Of a stretch of 31,431 nt of DNA, positions 3,424 through 30,775 are shown one piece after another. The notes under the pieces were generated by a model that ran no database searches, was not told where the DNA came from, and worked only from the letters and a program-made list of their open reading frames with translations. The stretch is taken from positions 1 through 31,431 of the IMG/VR virus record IMGVR_UViG_3300024346_000323; one strand, written 5' to 3'. Source of the stretch: a virus. Numbering within the stretch: position 1 is the stretch's first letter; every line of letters begins with the position of its first letter. A program made the position numbers and the translations under genes.

Positions 3424-4086
3424 ATGAACTTTATTGAGAAACTTAAACTACGCTTTGCTTCCGTCCCTACTTCCAAGTATAGGATCAAGAAAGCATTTGT
3501 ATGTGGTGGAGTGGAATACTACCAATTCGATGATGTGTTTAACCTACCTTACCAAAGAGGACTAACAGCCATTACGTTCTTCAGAGAGATGCAGATGAAC
3601 TGCGATAGGGACTTCTTGATGTCGTTTTGTGAAGCAAAAGCCAACATTGGGCAGAAGATTATCGATTCAATGAGCGTAAAGAATAATAAGTTGGACCTGA
3701 ATAAGACCATTGCTTTGTTGAATCAGTCAGCACAATTGGATATTAACCTAAAGGAGCGTGTGGCAATGATTACTGACTCGGATTTGATTTACAAGTTGGC
3801 GAGTGTGGTATTCTTTGACAAATCAGAAAGTCCAACGCATTACGAACACGGATATAATCAAAAAAAGATTGAATTTTGGAAGAAAAACGCATCCATGTAT
3901 GATTTTTTTTTGCAAATGCCAGTGCAGGAGTTAGTTCCCTTTTTGAAACAATCCGCAGGAGATACCCAACAGTATTTGCAGAAGATTATGGAGATGACGA
4001 TACAAGCGGAGGAATTAGCGAAGAACTCGCAGTTAGTTTTTTCGCACTTGTCATCCGAACAGAAGACGAAGTCCGTAGAGCAATAA
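3424..4086 (+). CDS. putative tail assembly chaperone, unshifted product
   Basis: A 220-residue protein directly upstream of the tape measure gene, the usual place of the G / GT chaperone pair in long-tailed phages. No family motif is obvious. The N-terminal half contains YYQFDDVFNLPYQRGL and a helical body; the C-terminal 55 residues are charged and helical. Codon 160 is followed by a run of nine T at 3903-3911, and the -1 frame opens exactly there (separate entry). The C-terminal part in this frame also has coding-like codons, so both products may be made. Role inferred from position and the frameshift arrangement. Confidence 0.65.
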   Translation: MNFIEKLKLRFASVPTSKYRIKKAFVCGGVEYYQFDDVFNLPYQRGLTAITFFREMQMNCDRDFLMSFCEAKANIGQKIIDSMSVKNNKLDLNKTIALLNQSAQLDINLKERVAMITDSDLIYKLASVVFFDKSESPTHYEHGYNQKKIEFWKKNASMYDFFLQMPVQELVPFLKQSAGDTQQYLQKIMEMTIQAEELAKNSQLVFSHLSSEQKTKSVEQ

Positions 4087-4229
4087 CAACCTTAGCCAAA
4101 CATTGTCCTGAACTGCACGATTGGACTACCATAGACGATTATTACTTCAAATGGAATGATGTAATAATAACAGCACAAAATCAATCAAAACAATCTTCCA
4201 ATAATGGAGAAGGTTACGATACAATTTGA
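3424..4229 (+). CDS. putative tail assembly chaperone, -1 frameshift fusion (GT-like)
   Basis: After the T run the -1 frame has no stop until TGA at 4227-4229. A TGA at 3900-3902 closes this frame immediately upstream, so entry is possible only at or after the run. The zero-frame codons GAT TTT TTT TTG offer T-TTT-TTT, on which both tRNAs re-pair perfectly after a -1 slip. The fusion would be about 268 residues with a 106-residue extension including ELAVSFFALVIR and HDWTTIDDYYFKWND. It covers the otherwise empty 4087-4203 gap and overlaps the tape measure start by 26 bases, as GT genes often do. Transcript slippage on the homopolymer would give the same product. Confidence 0.6.
3903..3911 (+). 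promoter_or_regulatory. slippery T9 run, programmed -1 frameshift site
   Basis: Nine consecutive T inside the chaperone gene, with TGA of the -1 frame ending one base before it. The heptamer T TTT TTT is in the correct phase for -1 slippage. I did not find an obvious strong downstream stem-loop by eye. Confidence 0.6.
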
Positions 4230-6561
4230 TGCCGATTTAAGTCCGTTGCAGGATAAATTAGGGCAATTAAAATCTTCAGGATTAGAGCAATTATCAACAG
4301 GGGCGAATGAAGCATCTTCCTCTATTGATAAATTAAGTCAGTCGGCAAAGAATATGCCGATGAATGTCATATCGCAAGGATTTGATGAGGCAACTACATC
4401 CATCAAGGAAAACAGCCAGGCAATAACGGAGAACGTTAGCAAACAGCAATCAATGAAGGCTGAATTGCGCGATTTGAAGAATAAGTTGCAAGAGATGGAG
4501 GATGCAGGAAAAGCAAACACTGCAGAATTCAATCGAATGGCAGAACGAGCAGGTCATTTAAGCGATCAAATTGGTGATACATCCAATCGTATTCGTGTTT
4601 TAGGGGATGATTCAAAATATATCAAGGCGGTAAGCCAGGCAGTTGGAGCAATGGCATCTGCTTATTCCGTTGCGCAGGGTGCATCAGCATTATTTGGAAA
4701 GGAGAATAAGGAAGTAGAAAAAGCGTTGTTAAAGGTAAACGCGGCAATGGCAATTGCTAATGGAATCCAACAAATCCACGAATCTTTATTAAAAGATAGC
4801 ACACTCGCGGTTGTATTAAATACATCAGCGACTAAAGCATATTCATTTGTTGTTGGAGAAAGCACAGGAGCGTTAAAGATATTCCGTGTTGCATTAGCAA
4901 GTACAGGTATTGGATTGATCGTATTAGCAGTTGGAGCATTAGTTGCTAATTGGAAGGAATTTGTTGGGTGGTTAACTAAATCATTCCCACAACTTGAAAT
5001 GGTTACAAAATTCTTCACCAATTTTAGACAAATTGCATCAGGTGCAATTGATGCAGTTGTTGCAGGGTTTAAAGGATTAGGTAAGATATTAAGCGATATT
5101 TTTACAGGTGATTTTACAGCATTAGCAAATGATGCAAAAGCATTCGGTGGTAATATTGCTGAAGCATATAATAAAGGATATGCAGAAAAAGACAAAGAAT
5201 TACAAATAAAAGCAGGAATTGAAACGCGTAGATTGGCAATTGAATTAGCCGAAAAACAAGGCAGAGATGTAAATCAATTGAAGTTACAATTGATGCGTGA
5301 TGAATTAAGCATCTTGGAAAAAGGAAGTGAAGATTATAATAAAAAGTTGGTTGAAATTGAAGGTGTAAGAGCGGATATTAAAAAGAAGGAAAGTGATAAA
5401 GACAAGAAACAATTAGAACGCGATAACGAACAAAGAATCAATGATATTGATGCAAGTTATCAAAAAGAAATAGTTATAAGGCAAGAGGCATTAGCCAAAA
5501 TGAATCAAGATAGCATAGAAGCGCGTGATTTGAGAAAAGAAATAGTAGACGCACAATATGCTTATGATTTGTTACAATTATCTAATCAAAATAAGAATGC
5601 ACAAGATTACGAAAACAAAGCAAAAGAATTAAGGATTAAAGCAAACAAGGAAAAAAGTGCGATTGATAAACAATATTTAGATGCTTATTCTCAACAATAT
5701 TCTGCGTGGATTAAATCAGTAACCGATGCAGAACAAAAGAAATTGGATGAAGCCAAAGCACTTAGGCAAGCATTAAAAAATGAAGCCATTGCATCTGCCC
5801 AAGAAATTGCAAATGGGGAATTCCAAATTGCACAAAATAAACGTGATGCTGAACTTCAAGCAAATATTGATGCGTTAGAAAAAAGAAAAGAAAACGAATT
5901 AGCCAATAAGAATTTATCCGAAGCACAAAAACAAGCAATTCAGGCTAAATATGATAAGTTAGAGGCTGAACAAAAGAAGAAAGCGTGGGAAGTAGAACAA
6001 GACGCAAAGAAAAAACAAGCCATCATTAATGGAGCATTAGCCATTACTAAAATATGGGCAGAAACAGGTGCAAATCCTGTATTAGCAGGTATTTTAACTG
6101 CCGCGTCCATTATTGCTACTGCTACCCAAGTGCGTGTGATAGATTCTCAGCCGGTACCAAAGTTCGCCAAAGGTAAGAACTTAGATGGCTATGAAGGAAT
6201 GGCAATCATTGGAGAAGCAGGTCGCGAATTACGATTAGATAGCGATGGAAGTATGAAGATGTATAATCGTGCAACCTTAGACCACGTGAATGCAGATAGC
6301 ATCATCCTACCTAACAATTTAACGGAGGCTTTGTTGAAGACCAACATCCCTGCGATGAACTTGCGTAATATGAATGCGGTTACCAAGCAAAATATATCTG
6401 CCAAGTTGGATATTGATTACAAGAAATTAGCGCGTACTTTGGGAGAGGAATTAAAGAATAGCCAAAAGGTAAGCGTTAACATTGATGAGAAAGGATTTGA
6501 AACGCGCATCCTCAATGGCATCAGTGAGCGCAGAGTGATTGATAACCGATATAAACTATAA
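4204..6561 (+). CDS. tail tape measure protein
   Basis: A 785-residue protein that sets tail length. It starts with a helical region rich in Ser, Gln and Lys, has a hydrophobic segment at about residues 226-250, a long charged coiled-coil region at about 330-600 (many EKK, QKR and NK repeats), a second hydrophobic segment near 608-642 (INGALAITKIWAETG and following), then a C-terminal domain beginning PVPKFAKGKNLDGYEG and including IIGEAGRELRL, typical of tape measure tails. At about 0.15 nm per residue it predicts a tail near 118 nm. Long stop-free frames on the opposite strand here are shadows of this low-complexity gene. Confidence 0.88.
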   Translation: MEKVTIQFDADLSPLQDKLGQLKSSGLEQLSTGANEASSSIDKLSQSAKNMPMNVISQGFDEATTSIKENSQAITENVSKQQSMKAELRDLKNKLQEMEDAGKANTAEFNRMAERAGHLSDQIGDTSNRIRVLGDDSKYIKAVSQAVGAMASAYSVAQGASALFGKENKEVEKALLKVNAAMAIANGIQQIHESLLKDSTLAVVLNTSATKAYSFVVGESTGALKIFRVALASTGIGLIVLAVGALVANWKEFVGWLTKSFPQLEMVTKFFTNFRQIASGAIDAVVAGFKGLGKILSDIFTGDFTALANDAKAFGGNIAEAYNKGYAEKDKELQIKAGIETRRLAIELAEKQGRDVNQLKLQLMRDELSILEKGSEDYNKKLVEIEGVRADIKKKESDKDKKQLERDNEQRINDIDASYQKEIVIRQEALAKMNQDSIEARDLRKEIVDAQYAYDLLQLSNQNKNAQDYENKAKELRIKANKEKSAIDKQYLDAYSQQYSAWIKSVTDAEQKKLDEAKALRQALKNEAIASAQEIANGEFQIAQNKRDAELQANIDALEKRKENELANKNLSEAQKQAIQAKYDKLEAEQKKKAWEVEQDAKKKQAIINGALAITKIWAETGANPVLAGILTAASIIATATQVRVIDSQPVPKFAKGKNLDGYEGMAIIGEAGRELRLDSDGSMKMYNRATLDHVNADSIILPNNLTEALLKTNIPAMNLRNMNAVTKQNISAKLDIDYKKLARTLGEELKNSQKVSVNIDEKGFETRILNGISERRVIDNRYKL

Positions 6562-6563
6562 CA

Positions 6564-8930
6564 ATGAATTGGAAGTTCAAATTAATAGATTTTACCTACG
6601 ATCCTGCAGGAGTGGAAACGGAAGTAACCGAACCACAAGGATGGGAGAATATCTCGTTAAACATTCGCAGGGATGAAGAAATGCATGGGATATTCTTTGA
6701 ATTCACAGGCAATGAACTGACATTCTACAAAGAAGGTATGAGCATCTTGCGTGATGCGTATAATGGTTATGGAGTGGAGGCGAATGTGAATATAGTGGTC
6801 CAGGCTTCCTGCGATGATGACAACTACGATACGTTCTATACAGGCAAGTTAATTTTCGATACCTATAAGGAAACAATCAGCGATTTGTGCAGTGTGTCTA
6901 TACGCACGGAGCAACAAGATGTGGTTACAACTTTCCGCAATCGTATTGATACTGCTGTGGATTTAGCCACTACAACTTCGTTAGATGGCACAGCACTCAC
7001 AACCTATACCAACCTTCCAAAAAACATTTATCTGCCATCAAAAGGACTATATAAGCGCACATTACGCTATATGGAAAATGATTTTTACATAGCACAAGGT
7101 TGTGTCTATCGTAAGAATGACATTAGCGCAGGTAGTGGATTAGAAACGAAAGATGTGACAATGTATTGGGATTTAGATTACGAGAACGCGCAAAATGATG
7201 AAGTAAAGAATTGGCAGGCAGTGGATATGTGGGATTTTAGTAGTGGCAGTATGTCCACAATGATCATAGAAGATGATGGGCAATATGATATTGACTTTCG
7301 TGTTAAAGGTATTGTATTAGGTGGAGCGCAAACGGAAGCAACAATTTTAGGAGGCAGTCCAGGTTCATTAGAAAATGGATTTTTGGATATGTGGGTAGAT
7401 GTAATATTTGCTGTAAATTATGTCGAAACAATTATAGGAAGTTATTATTTAAGCACTACTACGCAAAATTTATCTATTGCTTATCAAAGTCCAACAACAT
7501 CATCAGGTTTTTCAATGGAATGTCATCCTACATATGGAGGTGGACCTACACCAACATTGAATACATTTGATGAAAACAACCCTACAATTGCTAATATACC
7601 TATTGATGAATCATATACAACCACTGCTACATTGAGCAATGGCGATGTGGTGGCTGTTTATTTAAAGGTAAGGCAACAAGGCGAATACCATCGTCAATTA
7701 TTTAATAAAGAGGATATTTATTGGTCACAATCGTTCAAAAAGTCATCTGATAGTTACTTCAACATCAATTCCATTCTTTACAAGCCGACAACGAACACGG
7801 ACACGTTTTTAGTGAACGAATCATTTGCGCGTACAACCGAAGCAATCACGGATAACAAAATGAGCGTTTATTCGGATTATTTTGGAAGAACGGATAGCCA
7901 ACCTTATCAAGCGTTAACCGATGGCTGTGGTAGTTTAGAAAGCATCACCACAGGCTTACTAATCCGCGAGCAATTGGTATCAGGCAATACGCCTAAATTG
8001 AATATCTCATTCAAAGATTTGTTTACAGGGTTTAACTGCATCCACAATATCGGGATAGGTTTGGAGGATGATAATTACGGAGGTGGTCGCGAGAAAATTA
8101 TCCGCATTGAACCTGTTGCGCATTTCTATGATTCAACTACGCCAATAATGACTTGCGGTAATGTGTTCAACATTACAAGGTCGGTATTGCCTACCCGAAT
8201 GTATAGTGAGATTGAAGGAGGATATGCCAAATATGAGAGTGAGGACATTACAGGTATTGATGAATTCCTTTCCAAACGTGAATATCGCACGGAATGGAGC
8301 CAAACGCGCAACAAAGACAGCCGAGTGTGTAACTTCATTGCTTCAGGGTATGCGTTGGAAGTAACACGTAGAAAAGGGCATTTAACAACGAGTGATTGGA
8401 GATTAGACAATGACATATTTGTTATCTGCATGAAGCGTTATTCAGGGGATATTGTGGTGGAGCAAGGGCAAATATCAGGTGATGTGAATATTGTTGATCC
8501 TAACACAGTATACAATTTTGCGATTAGTCCAATTCGTAATGCAACGCGATGGTTAAAAACGTGGTTTGCAGGGTTGAAGAATCCATTGACAAGCAAGTTA
8601 ATATTCGCCAATGGAACAGGTAACTATTTTGCAGGTGGGCAATATACCCAAGCGTGTTCAACGGATGGGCAGGTATTGATTGAGAATGATGCGTTGGAAA
8701 GTGCAATGTTGACGGATCCTAATATTGCTGTTCCATTATGGAAGCCTGAACAAATCCAATTCGACTATCCGATGTCAATGGCTGACTATAATACCATCAA
8801 ATTATCACCTTATGGCTACGTGAAATATAGTTCCGATGGAATTACATATCAAAATGGGTATATTCTCAATATTGAGTATAAACCAAATCAGGGAATTGCT
8901 AACTTTACACTATTCTCCGCAAATTTTTAA
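6564..8930 (+). CDS. large tail / baseplate protein, possibly distal-tail or tail-associated
   Basis: A 788-residue protein starting two bases after the tape measure stop, in the usual place of distal tail and tail-hub proteins. The first 130 residues (WKFKLIDFTYDPAG, then GWENISLNIRRDEEMHGIFFEF) look like a beta-rich distal-tail domain. The rest is beta-rich, with few charges and many Thr, Ser, Asn and Tyr, ending in SDGITYQNGYILNIEYKPNQ. No enzyme motif is visible. It probably joins the tail tube to the host-recognition apparatus. The specific name is inferred from order; only the structural class is well supported. Confidence 0.7.
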   Translation: MNWKFKLIDFTYDPAGVETEVTEPQGWENISLNIRRDEEMHGIFFEFTGNELTFYKEGMSILRDAYNGYGVEANVNIVVQASCDDDNYDTFYTGKLIFDTYKETISDLCSVSIRTEQQDVVTTFRNRIDTAVDLATTTSLDGTALTTYTNLPKNIYLPSKGLYKRTLRYMENDFYIAQGCVYRKNDISAGSGLETKDVTMYWDLDYENAQNDEVKNWQAVDMWDFSSGSMSTMIIEDDGQYDIDFRVKGIVLGGAQTEATILGGSPGSLENGFLDMWVDVIFAVNYVETIIGSYYLSTTTQNLSIAYQSPTTSSGFSMECHPTYGGGPTPTLNTFDENNPTIANIPIDESYTTTATLSNGDVVAVYLKVRQQGEYHRQLFNKEDIYWSQSFKKSSDSYFNINSILYKPTTNTDTFLVNESFARTTEAITDNKMSVYSDYFGRTDSQPYQALTDGCGSLESITTGLLIREQLVSGNTPKLNISFKDLFTGFNCIHNIGIGLEDDNYGGGREKIIRIEPVAHFYDSTTPIMTCGNVFNITRSVLPTRMYSEIEGGYAKYESEDITGIDEFLSKREYRTEWSQTRNKDSRVCNFIASGYALEVTRRKGHLTTSDWRLDNDIFVICMKRYSGDIVVEQGQISGDVNIVDPNTVYNFAISPIRNATRWLKTWFAGLKNPLTSKLIFANGTGNYFAGGQYTQACSTDGQVLIENDALESAMLTDPNIAVPLWKPEQIQFDYPMSMADYNTIKLSPYGYVKYSSDGITYQNGYILNIEYKPNQGIANFTLFSANF

Positions 8931-15333: not shown

Positions 15334-15525
15334 TTATTTAGATTCTGATTCATTGATTGCTTTCTTTAAGTACAAAGCCATATCCAATGCTTCCTCGTAT
15401 GCGTGTTGTAGCCACTCTTTATGCGTTAAATCGCTTCGGTCCATCGTGGTGTTGTATTTTGCTATTCCGCGTTGCTCTCTGCTCTCTAAATCGCTAATAA
15501 CGGATTGAAGGAGGTGTGAATTCAT
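15334..15525 (-). CDS. MazG-like short helical protein
   Basis: A 63-residue helical protein. The segment RGIAKYNTTMDRSDLTHKEW and EEALDMALYLKK resembles short phage proteins related to the all-alpha NTP pyrophosphatases (MazG-like), where E-E-x2-D binds a metal. Only part of that domain is present, so activity is uncertain. It lies four bases into the end of the thyX gene (ATGA overlap), consistent with a nucleotide-metabolism pair. Confidence 0.6.
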   Translation of the reverse strand: MNSHLLQSVISDLESREQRGIAKYNTTMDRSDLTHKEWLQHAYEEALDMALYLKKAINESESK

Positions 15526-16139
15526 AAGTTAAATGCTTTAATTGTAAATTCAAATGGGTTGCCATTGATTGCTTTTACCTGCTCCAACATTTGCCGAGCC
15601 ACATTGCGTACTTCAACCTGCGCGTGTTCAGAATCACGAAGGTGCAGGAAGTGAACAAAACTGCGCCAATTGAACATTATATCCATAGTAATCTGCGAAT
15701 TCATTGTCTTAAAGAATCGTGCGGATTCTTTTGCTCTTTTGCGACCTAAAATAGGGGTTAAATCAGCCAAGCATTCGTGATATAGTGTATTGCCTAAATT
15801 GGTATAAGTAAACAGCGCATTTGTCCATTTTTCATTCCAATCTTCAGGCATATAATGTTTATCTTCCTTTAGTTCCTTATATCGCGCAGATTCACCATTG
15901 ATGCTCACACCTATGCGATGCTTTAACAAATGGATGTGTGTTGCTTGATCAACTGTTACTAAAAAATGCAAACTACTTTTCTCAAATGGCGTGTGGTGTC
16001 CTTCCTTTGCTAACATAGTCAACAAAGCAGGGATGCGTTCAACTTTTTCTATTGTTAAATCTCTACTTGTGGAAGTCCAGGCAGATTGTGCGTGGATTTG
16101 GTCATTGCCATAGTGACCTATTAATTCAACTTTATTCAT
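15522..16139 (-). CDS. thyX: flavin-dependent thymidylate synthase
   Basis: A 205-residue ThyX that makes dTMP from dUMP using FAD, methylene-tetrahydrofolate and NADPH. It has HHTPFEKSSLHF (residues 48-59) and the signature KHRIGVSINGESARY (73-87). The classical form is RHR-x7-S; here the first Arg is Lys and there is one extra residue between Arg75 and Ser84. I chose ATG at 16139 (MNKVELIGHYGN), which matches ThyX N-termini; the 14 residues upstream are read from the promoter region. It is the first gene of the minus-strand island, behind a good promoter. Confidence 0.92.
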   Translation of the reverse strand: MNKVELIGHYGNDQIHAQSAWTSTSRDLTIEKVERIPALLTMLAKEGHHTPFEKSSLHFLVTVDQATHIHLLKHRIGVSINGESARYKELKEDKHYMPEDWNEKWTNALFTYTNLGNTLYHECLADLTPILGRKRAKESARFFKTMNSQITMDIMFNWRSFVHFLHLRDSEHAQVEVRNVARQMLEQVKAINGNPFEFTIKAFNL

Positions 16140-16165
16140 TTGGTTGCTTTGGTTTATTTGGTTCC

Positions 16166-16198
16166 GTAAAGATAAAAACAACCTATCAATTATCCAAA
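16166..16198 (-). promoter_or_regulatory. promoter for the thyX island
   Basis: On the minus strand TTTG (complement of 16195-16198), a 20-base spacer, then TATCTTTA followed by C (complement of 16167-16174, C at 16166). The -7 box differs from TAnnTTTG only at the last base. The box lies 27 bases before the chosen thyX ATG. Confidence 0.65.
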
Positions 16199-20917: not shown

Positions 20918-21460
20918 ATGTCTTACGGTACTACTTACGGCACAGGATGTTTGGCTTTGAGTGCATTCCAATGTGAGCCGTGCGCTCCTATTGAACACGG
21001 AAGAATTCGTGGTGTGGCTCTTATCCATAAATCTTTTGCTTTCACTGATCCTACCGATCCAACCGAATGGGCAACAGGTATCTCCGCAGGTTCAATTTTC
21101 GTTATTCCAAAAACTAACGGACAATTTGATGGAGGAACTGAGCAATACGGTGAAGGATTTGGTAATGATGACAAAGAGTACGAAACATCTGAATTCAAAG
21201 GTATGTTTAGCGACTTCAACTATGAAGCAAACGCTGTTGCTTATAACAAAGCACGTAAAACTGCCCACAAGGATTACAAGATTGCTTTCTGCTCTGAAAA
21301 CTTCGTTCACATTTCCGAAGGTATGGTTACAATTCAACCAAAAGCAGTCATTCAGAATGACAAGAAGAAACGCGTGGTTTGGGAAGTTAGTTTCTCATTC
21401 ATCCAGGAGGACCACCCTGTTCCTTACTTGAAGCCTGATGGCATCTTTGTATGTGATTAA
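20918..21460 (+). CDS. putative major tail tube protein
   Basis: A 180-residue beta-rich protein followed by the strongest terminator in the window, as for an abundant structural product. Its N-terminus holds a Cys group (GCLALSAFQCEPCAP); the rest alternates strands (HGRIRGVALIHKSFAF, DKKKRVVWEVSFSFIQED). Size and place after neck genes fit a tail tube. The 156-codon frame shifted by one base inside it is rejected as a shadow. Confidence 0.6.
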   Translation: MSYGTTYGTGCLALSAFQCEPCAPIEHGRIRGVALIHKSFAFTDPTDPTEWATGISAGSIFVIPKTNGQFDGGTEQYGEGFGNDDKEYETSEFKGMFSDFNYEANAVAYNKARKTAHKDYKIAFCSENFVHISEGMVTIQPKAVIQNDKKKRVVWEVSFSFIQEDHPVPYLKPDGIFVCD

Positions 21461-29167: not shown

Positions 29168-29574
29168 TGTTTAAAGAAAGTAAAAAACAATATTTTGCTC
29201 CATACAATTTATGGGAAGATTACAAAGCAGGTATGTATAACACTTATAACATTATTGATAAGGATATTAAAATTCAAAATGCAATTAAATTGCTTTCAAA
29301 TAAACAAGAATTCTTCCAAGTATCAATGGAAATGGTTAGCAAATGGGAAGTATCTGCAAAAGTTAATTTAACCAATTTAAACCAAAATAGAAAGGCTTGG
29401 ATAGGAGCCGCATCTTGTATGTATAAATATAATGTTCCTGAAATATTAACACGTATTGCGTGGAATAGTTTAGATAAAGAAGAACAGGATAGAGCCAATG
29501 AATCGGCACAAGATGTAATTCAAATTTATATAAACCGTTTAAACTACCACAATAATGTCCAAACTTTATTCTAA
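29167..29574 (+). CDS. unknown 135-residue protein linked to the IbrA-like gene
   Basis: A helical protein with an aromatic N-terminus (YFAPYNLWEDYKAGMYNTYN) and Trp-rich body (SKWEVSAKVNL, NRKAWIGAASCMYKYNVPE, TRIAWNSLDKEEQ). It overlaps the exonuclease stop by one base and the IbrA-like gene by 20 bases, so translation of the three genes is tightly linked. It carries no recognised domain. Such coupling suggests a protein partner of the PAPS-reductase-like or ParB-like product. Confidence 0.65.
   Translation: MFKESKKQYFAPYNLWEDYKAGMYNTYNIIDKDIKIQNAIKLLSNKQEFFQVSMEMVSKWEVSAKVNLTNLNQNRKAWIGAASCMYKYNVPEILTRIAWNSLDKEEQDRANESAQDVIQIYINRLNYHNNVQTLF
29544..29550 (+). promoter_or_regulatory. CTACCAC leader motif inside the preceding gene
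   Basis: CTACCAC, then AATA, then the ATG at 29555. The motif is kept although the site lies in the coding region of the upstream gene. Confidence 0.55.
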
Positions 29575-30775
29575 TCAAAATGTCTTAGACGCATCCTTAG
29601 AAAGGATTGATTACACTTTCAATAATTTTGAAAAAATCTATCTTTCTTATAGTGGCGGTAAAGATTCTACTGTTATGCTTCATTTAGTAATGGAATTTGC
29701 TAAAAAGTATAATAAAAAAATAGGTCTTTTATTTATTGATTTGGAAGGTCAATATAAATTAACTATTGATCACATCCAGTTATGCTATGAAATGTATGCA
29801 GATTTAATTGAACCTTATTGGGTTTGCTTACCTATACATTTGAGAAATGCTGTATCAGTATTTGAAACACATTGGAAATGTTGGGATAAATCAGCAGAAA
29901 AATCTTGGATAAGAGAATTTCCTAAAAATGCTATTACCAATTATGACTATTTCCCATTTTTTCACGATGGAATGGAATTTGAAGAATTTGTACCTGAATT
30001 TGGCAAATGGTATGCAAAAGGTAAAACTTGCGCGTGTTTTGTAGGTATTCGAGCAGATGAATCTCTTAATCGTTTTAGAAGTATTAATAGCAAATCTAAA
30101 ATTAGATTTAATGATAAATCTTGGACTACAAAGGTAGTAGATAATGTTTACAATGTTTATCCAGTATATGATTGGAAAACACAAGATTTGTGGGTATATC
30201 ACGCAAAAAATAAACATTTACCTTACAATAGATTATATGATTTAATGCATTTAGCAGGGTTAAAATTGTCACAAATGCGTATTTGTCAACCATATGGTGA
30301 TGATCAACGTAGGGGATTATGGCTATTCCATTTAATTGAGCCTGAAACTTGGGGTAAAGTTGTAGCACGAGTTAATGGTGCTAATAGTGGAGCATTATAT
30401 GTAAATGAATCAGGTAATATGACAGGATATAGAAAAATAAGTAAACCTGATGGTCACACTTGGCAATCTTTTGCTAATTTATTAATTGATTCAATGCCAC
30501 CAAAAACAAGGGTTCATTATCAAAACAAAATATCAGTATTTGTTAAATGGTGGATGGATAGAGGATATTCAGATGGTATTCCTGATGAAGCAGATTACAA
30601 ATTAGAATCTGACAAAAAAGTACCAAGTTGGAGAAGAATATGCAAATCATTATTAAGAAATGATTATTGGTGTAAAGGATTATCTTTTACACAGCATAAA
30701 AGTGAAGCATACAATAAGTATTTAAAACTTATTGAATCGAAAAAAAACAAATGGCAATTAAATATTTTTAACTAA
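29555..30775 (+). CDS. IbrA-like PAPS-reductase-family protein (DUF3440 type)
   Basis: A 406-residue ATP-binding PP-loop protein. The PP-loop SGGKDS is at residues 33-38, followed by the family segment FVGIRADESLNR (162-173) and a Trp/Asp-containing block (NVYPVYDWKTQDLW) near 205. That arrangement matches DUF3440 proteins such as IbrA rather than the cysH sulfate-assimilation enzyme. PP-loop enzymes adenylate substrates, sometimes to pass sulfur. It is followed by a ParB-domain protein gene, as ibrB follows ibrA. The reaction in phages is unknown; a link to modified nucleic acid or regulation is possible. Confidence 0.85.
   Translation: MSKLYSNQNVLDASLERIDYTFNNFEKIYLSYSGGKDSTVMLHLVMEFAKKYNKKIGLLFIDLEGQYKLTIDHIQLCYEMYADLIEPYWVCLPIHLRNAVSVFETHWKCWDKSAEKSWIREFPKNAITNYDYFPFFHDGMEFEEFVPEFGKWYAKGKTCACFVGIRADESLNRFRSINSKSKIRFNDKSWTTKVVDNVYNVYPVYDWKTQDLWVYHAKNKHLPYNRLYDLMHLAGLKLSQMRICQPYGDDQRRGLWLFHLIEPETWGKVVARVNGANSGALYVNESGNMTGYRKISKPDGHTWQSFANLLIDSMPPKTRVHYQNKISVFVKWWMDRGYSDGIPDEADYKLESDKKVPSWRRICKSLLRNDYWCKGLSFTQHKSEAYNKYLKLIESKKNKWQLNIFN

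Follow-up and report, generated by a model that had tools for sequence, protein, structure and literature searches.

A conserved nine-T run is predicted to join a putative phage tail assembly chaperone to a hidden -1 frame, with two dual-coded C-termini

The 31,431 nucleotides (nt) of the IMG/VR virus record IMGVR_UViG_3300024346_000323 (positions 1 to 31,431, hereafter the window) contain, directly upstream of the tape measure protein (TMP) gene, a putative tail assembly chaperone gene carrying a run of nine T's (T9), from which the -1 frame is open past the end of the gene. A slip of one base on T9 would join the zero-frame product, G, to the -1 frame, T. The T run and the open -1 frame are kept in relatives, all of which are uncultured viral contigs, and on this comparison a slip-made GT protein almost certainly exists, by whichever enzyme it is produced. 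We lean towards programmed -1 ribosomal frameshifting at T9, by which two proteins would be obtained from one gene.

In the zero frame, G starts at ATG 3424 and stops at TAA 4084-4086, and the codons across T9 read GAT TTT TTT TTG. The -1 frame carries a TGA (3900-3902) just before T9, is open from 3903 to 4226 and ends at a second TGA (4227-4229). It fills the 117-nt gap (4087-4203) that separates G from the TMP gene (ATG 4204) and overlaps the start of the latter by 26 nt. The fusion expected after a slip on T9 would be 268 amino acids (aa) long, the first 162 residues being common to G and the C-terminal 106 coming from the -1 frame, with the predicted junction sequence SMYDFFFANASAG...; the sequence read only in T includes HDWTTIDDYYFK, and that of the G tail includes QELVPFLK. 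Because its frame lacks ATG, GTG and TTG codons in the window, T is unlisted by ordinary gene finding and missed entirely by gene callers. This arrangement had been proposed in a first-pass annotation of the window. Its coordinates for G, T9 and the -1 frame were all correct on recheck, as were the product of about 106 residues filling the gap, the 26-base overlap with the TMP gene and the phasing of GAT TTT TTT TTG for -1 slippage.

The G-T junction was reached in 98 loci, ranging from identical to about 35% aa identity and forming 26 clusters at 80% aa identity (referred to as lineages) and 14 at 50%. A T run was found at the junction in all 98, as T9 in 96 and as eight T's (T8) in two (L082 and L107). 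Codon phase is shared by 95 of the 96 T9 loci, that of L090 being shifted. Counted by lineage, T9 is present in 24/26 and T8 in 2/26, and the heptamer T_TTT_TTT lies in phase in 26/26; this is the outcome of the homologue comparison for run and phase suggested in the first-pass annotation. The -1 frame was open in 98/98 loci, and a relative lacking it, which would count against the proposal, was found in none. This frame measures about 87-115 codons, except in L124, where the contig ends early, and in L072, where it runs into the TMP gene; in complete cases it extends 80-185 nt beyond the G stop, and 41-70 zero-frame codons are left after the slip in complete lineages. In most lineages the next long open reading frame (ORF) lies close downstream of G.

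Codon choice at the run is also constrained. Phe161 and Phe162 are encoded by TTT in 52/52 cases across the 26 lineages, with a p of about 4e-12 given how often the family itself uses TTT (lineages are treated as independent in this and the following p-values), and Leu163 by TTG or TTA in 23/23. The codons of the invariant Phe25 are 16 TTT and 9 TTC, and other invariant residues also mix synonyms. In an 11-sequence DNA alignment, T9G was the sole invariant block. Retention of T9 in about one hundred related uncultured phages thus points to a functional switch and not to a chance stretch.

Both frames downstream of the run are selected as protein. Over the 25 codons after the run, the 26 lineages contain no stop in frame 0, none in frame -1 and 99 in frame +1, and mean pairwise BLOSUM62 scores per residue were 1.54, 1.28 and 0.42, respectively. 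Upstream of the run, frame 0 alone scored (1.05 vs 0.31 and 0.20). In two clades, variation fell on codon position 3 before the run and was spread over the positions within the overlap; beyond the G stop it lay mostly at position 3 of the -1 frame (p 0.002 and 0.009, lineages again taken as independent). These comparisons indicate protein-coding selection on the -1 frame. The G tail is selected as protein in its own right, because Pro172 is kept in 26/26 lineages with all four Pro codons in use. Since both frames after the run are stop-free and conserved as protein, the predicted G and GT proteins carry alternative C-termini, encoded by a shared stretch of about 57 codons. The first-pass annotation had described the -1 product as an extension: it does continue past the G stop, but it is not merely an extension, as the post-slip tail of G, of about 57 residues, is also conserved. 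The overlap diverges little between the window and L003, but a neighbouring stretch is equally low, and no weight was given to this.

The sets of relatives were obtained in two ways. When G, T, TMP, the gene at 6564 and alignments of these served as queries against viral and genome contigs, the matches were confined to near-identical contigs or there were none; one near-identical contig has identical DNA over the G gene. The upstream terminase used as query gave 39 viral contigs, about 20 of them with a reachable G gene between terminase and TMP, and for the more distant of these G genes identity over the aligned part was roughly 29-56%. With a profile built from twelve G proteins, 116 relatives were then obtained in IMG/VR, of which 80 were kept, and a profile search across all collected loci found G in 99. 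Clustered at 90%, the resulting alignment comprises 36 sequences. Since the search patterns of neither the terminase nor the G profile contain the T run, these sets are unselected for it.

Could the open -1 frame be fortuitous, artefactual or a gene of its own? In the window sequence, shuffles gave a probability of an open -1 frame of 0.05-0.15 across the overlap and about 0.03 for the stretch beyond the G stop. The combined value of about 0.001-0.004 for one sequence is small, yet not negligible given many genes. By codon usage and base composition by codon position, the -1 frame fits the overlap at least as well as frame 0 (G+C by codon position 0.60/0.49/0.26 in frame -1 of the overlap vs 0.45/0.36/0.33 in the window's genes), and the stretch beyond the G stop scores like ordinary genes. 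This single-sequence evidence for coding is suggestive only. What decides the matter is the comparison: all 98 related loci, down to about 35% identity, keep a T run and an open -1 frame, which refutes chance, an explanation that we regard as wholly improbable. A misread or misassembled T run, with the true gene continuous in one frame, deserves consideration since homopolymers are prone to error; it is nevertheless very unlikely, as the identical T9 occurs in contigs of independent metagenomes and in nearly all loci. The conservation of the G tail as protein, with varying synonymous codons, also argues against such an error and for both frames being real. Equally improbable is a separate T gene with its own start. 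The part of T beyond the G stop is, by itself, under protein-level selection, as a separate gene would be; however, the T frame of the window has no ATG, GTG or TTG, no start codon was found within the first 40 codons of the -1 frame in 24/26 lineages, and the conserved T run would be left unexplained.

Lambda-type G-T frameshifting is ribosomal and widespread (PMC5009743). In lambda, a few per cent of ribosomes shift to the -1 frame, gpG and gpGT both bind the TMP, and the T part recruits the tail tube protein (PMC5009743); reporter tests of HK97-like tail chaperone sites measured 6-7% frameshifting (PMC3711429). By analogy, most ribosomes would read through the zero frame of the present gene and produce G, while a minority would slip one base back on T_TTT_TTT (or T_TTT_TTG) during Phe-Phe(-Leu) decoding and produce GT. 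G and GT would together coat the TMP and would later leave the tail, once the T part has recruited the tail tube protein. The slippage, the ribosome as its agent, the ratio of the products and the chaperone role are what we infer from sequence and precedent.

The same GT protein may be obtained if RNA polymerase slips on T9, since transcripts with ten U's would put standard translation in the T frame. The first-pass caveat that T9 could slip during transcription was justified, and we hold polymerase slippage to be a serious candidate, though not the expected one. Several observations speak for it or weigh against the ribosome. Nine T's are held in 24/26 lineages although the heptamer needs seven, and T9 fits the 9A/9T class of transcriptional slippage, whose criterion is at least nine A's or T's where the frames join. 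No stem, pseudoknot or other stimulatory RNA structure was found after the T run in the window and none is conserved (mean z about 0 over the 26 lineages); no Shine-Dalgarno-like element upstream of T9 was evident by eye. In E. coli, U_UUU_UUU works only modestly as a ribosomal site and shifts far less readily than A_AAA_AAG (PMC5009743). T9 is also the sole homopolymer of at least nine in the window, with none elsewhere vs about 5 expected from shuffles, and elsewhere in 239 kb of relatives only one T run and one A run reach this length; runs of nine therefore look avoided. Finally, a different Bacteroidota chaperone family, described below, has poly-A at the corresponding junction, with a genomic frame that differs between members.

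Against the polymerase, the two T8 lineages fall short of nine T's and still hold the ribosomal heptamer T_TTT_TTT, their Leu codon being replaced (TAC, TCA); they offer a natural test of which enzyme slips. The last two T's of T9 could be fixed by both proteins jointly, through the conserved Leu of frame 0 and Phe of frame -1. To our knowledge, the tail-chaperone frameshifts studied by experiment are ribosomal. Taken together, the in-phase T_TTT_TTT of all 26 lineages, T8 ones included, and the tail-chaperone precedent modestly favour a ribosomal slip. That a large uncatalogued chaperone family makes short and long forms, with alternative dual-coded C-terminal domains, by polymerase slippage on exactly nine T's is a tentative proposal, somewhat less likely than not; if true, the stoichiometry of tail assembly would be set by transcription rather than by the ribosome. 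The 26 diverged lineages, which share one nearly invariant T9 and show no RNA structure, make the family a clean natural set for the question of ribosome versus polymerase.

The family appears to be new. G and T of the window had no significant match in PHROGs, Pfam or PDB, twelve relatives had none in PHROGs or PDB, and queries with the window or L067 found nothing in INPHARED. Direct tblastn of G and T there gave chance matches only, MT835762 proving to be an unrelated ORF; AlphaFold models of G and T had a mean predicted local distance difference test score of 45, and no fold search was based on them. The chaperone role is inferred from the position directly upstream of the TMP gene and from the G/GT architecture. 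The first-pass label of tail chaperone is consistent with these two features, whereas no sequence homology to a known chaperone was seen. A Bacteroidota host is suggested, by the TMP relatives only. Tail-chaperone frameshifting would thus gain an uncatalogued family, with 116 relatives in IMG/VR and none found in INPHARED.

The closest parallel is lambda gpG/gpGT, where -1 slippage in a gene directly upstream of the TMP gene gives two products, the longer with a -1 frame C-terminus (PMC5009743). As in lambda-type G/GT genes, the two frames are connected here by a slippery sequence that is conserved and correctly phased. The present family differs from lambda by its T9 site, by the absence of visible sequence homology and by the place of the slip: lambda slips near the 3' end of G, whereas here conserved zero-frame codons follow it. 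A dual-coded overlap with two conserved C-termini departs from this textbook case.

A shared strategy, but not a shared sequence, was found in the phrog_8914 chaperones of Bacteroides, Parabacteroides, Flavobacterium and Croceibacter phages, for example Flavobacterium sp. phage 1/32. These genes also lie upstream of the TMP gene, encode about 250 aa and have a homopolymer at the G/T junction. Poly-A was present at the VKKK codons of this junction in 12/12 members examined (L016, L018 and L020-L029). The genomic frame is split in three of the 12, Flavobacterium phage 1/32 (annotated as a joined coding sequence, F132_38), Croceibacter phage P2559S and Bacteroides phage BF8P1, and continuous in the rest. 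B40-8 (A10) and BF8P1 (A11) are near-identical and their frames differ. Homopolymer slippage is thus suggested for another family of Bacteroidota chaperones, one that often makes the fusion even without a slip. In contrast with the poly-T of the window family, the run is poly-A and the genomic frame variable and often already fused, and there is no significant overall sequence similarity. The T end of the window family aligned in register with the phrog_8914 C-terminus, but weakly (hhalign E 0.0028, probability 11%), and homology is not claimed; for G the hhalign probability was 0.2%. Phages that carry phrog_8914 genes, such as OP172640, OP172815, KJ018210, JQ867099 and FJ008913, gave no match to the profile of the window family, and no homology was found to the chaperone-position genes of Rhodobacteraceae phage LS06-2018-MD05 and Tenacibaculum phage JQ.

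Another likeness is provided by the phrog_14983/phrog_11996 pair of Porphyromonas phage 013a and Elizabethkingia phage TCUEAP3, in which an unannotated -1 frame ORF fills the gap before the TMP gene and overlaps the upstream gene. In Porphyromonas phage 005b, a phrog_15994 G is paired with a phrog_11996 T. These are other protein families, without T9; a T_TTT_TTG occurs in the overlap of 005b only, in phase. The phrog_11996 ORFs of the three phages are probably hidden T products.

Table. Positions of the G-T-TMP features in the window and of comparable -1 frame ORFs in other phages (contig named where not the window).
Feature	Position	Strand	Basis
G, zero-frame product, putative tail assembly chaperone	3424..4086	+	ORF, 220 aa; homologues at 35-98% aa identity in 99 loci; flanked by terminase and TMP
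T9, predicted slip site	3903..3911	+	in-phase T_TTT_TTT (3903-3909) and T_TTT_TTG (3906-3912)
T, predicted -1 frame extension	3909..4229	+	106 codons and stop; without canonical start; homologous -1 frame in every relative
Dual-coded overlap, G tail (zero frame, 57 codons) and T (-1 frame)	3912..4083	+	
T segment read in -1 frame only, ending 26 nt inside TMP	4087..4229	+	third-position-biased variation in two clades
TMP	4204..6561	+	PHROGs match to tail length tape measure (E 8e-17); TMP-annotated tblastn matches
Unannotated -1 frame ORFs (phrog_11996) overlapping the pre-TMP gene	L014:3364-3711, L015:3256-3555, L019:3499-3780		phages 013a, 005b, TCUEAP3

Some further features of the window and its relatives were noted. 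In L072 (3397-4495), the T frame lacks its own stop and continues in frame into the TMP gene, for 366 codons up to the contig end; a frameshift there could give a G-T-TMP fusion, in this one contig, be it real or an error. In the window, the chaperone and TMP genes (3424-6561) follow the terminase and lie about 17 kb from a possible tail tube gene (20918-21460), a gene order that is unusual if the gene at 20918 encodes the tube protein, an assignment guessed from position. The middle of the TMP gene (5200-5950) has up to 73 mismatches per 150 nt with L010, while its flanks are near 95% identical. By PHROGs, the window also contains auxiliary metabolic genes, one PAPS reductase-like (29555-30775) and one ThyX-like (15522-16181).
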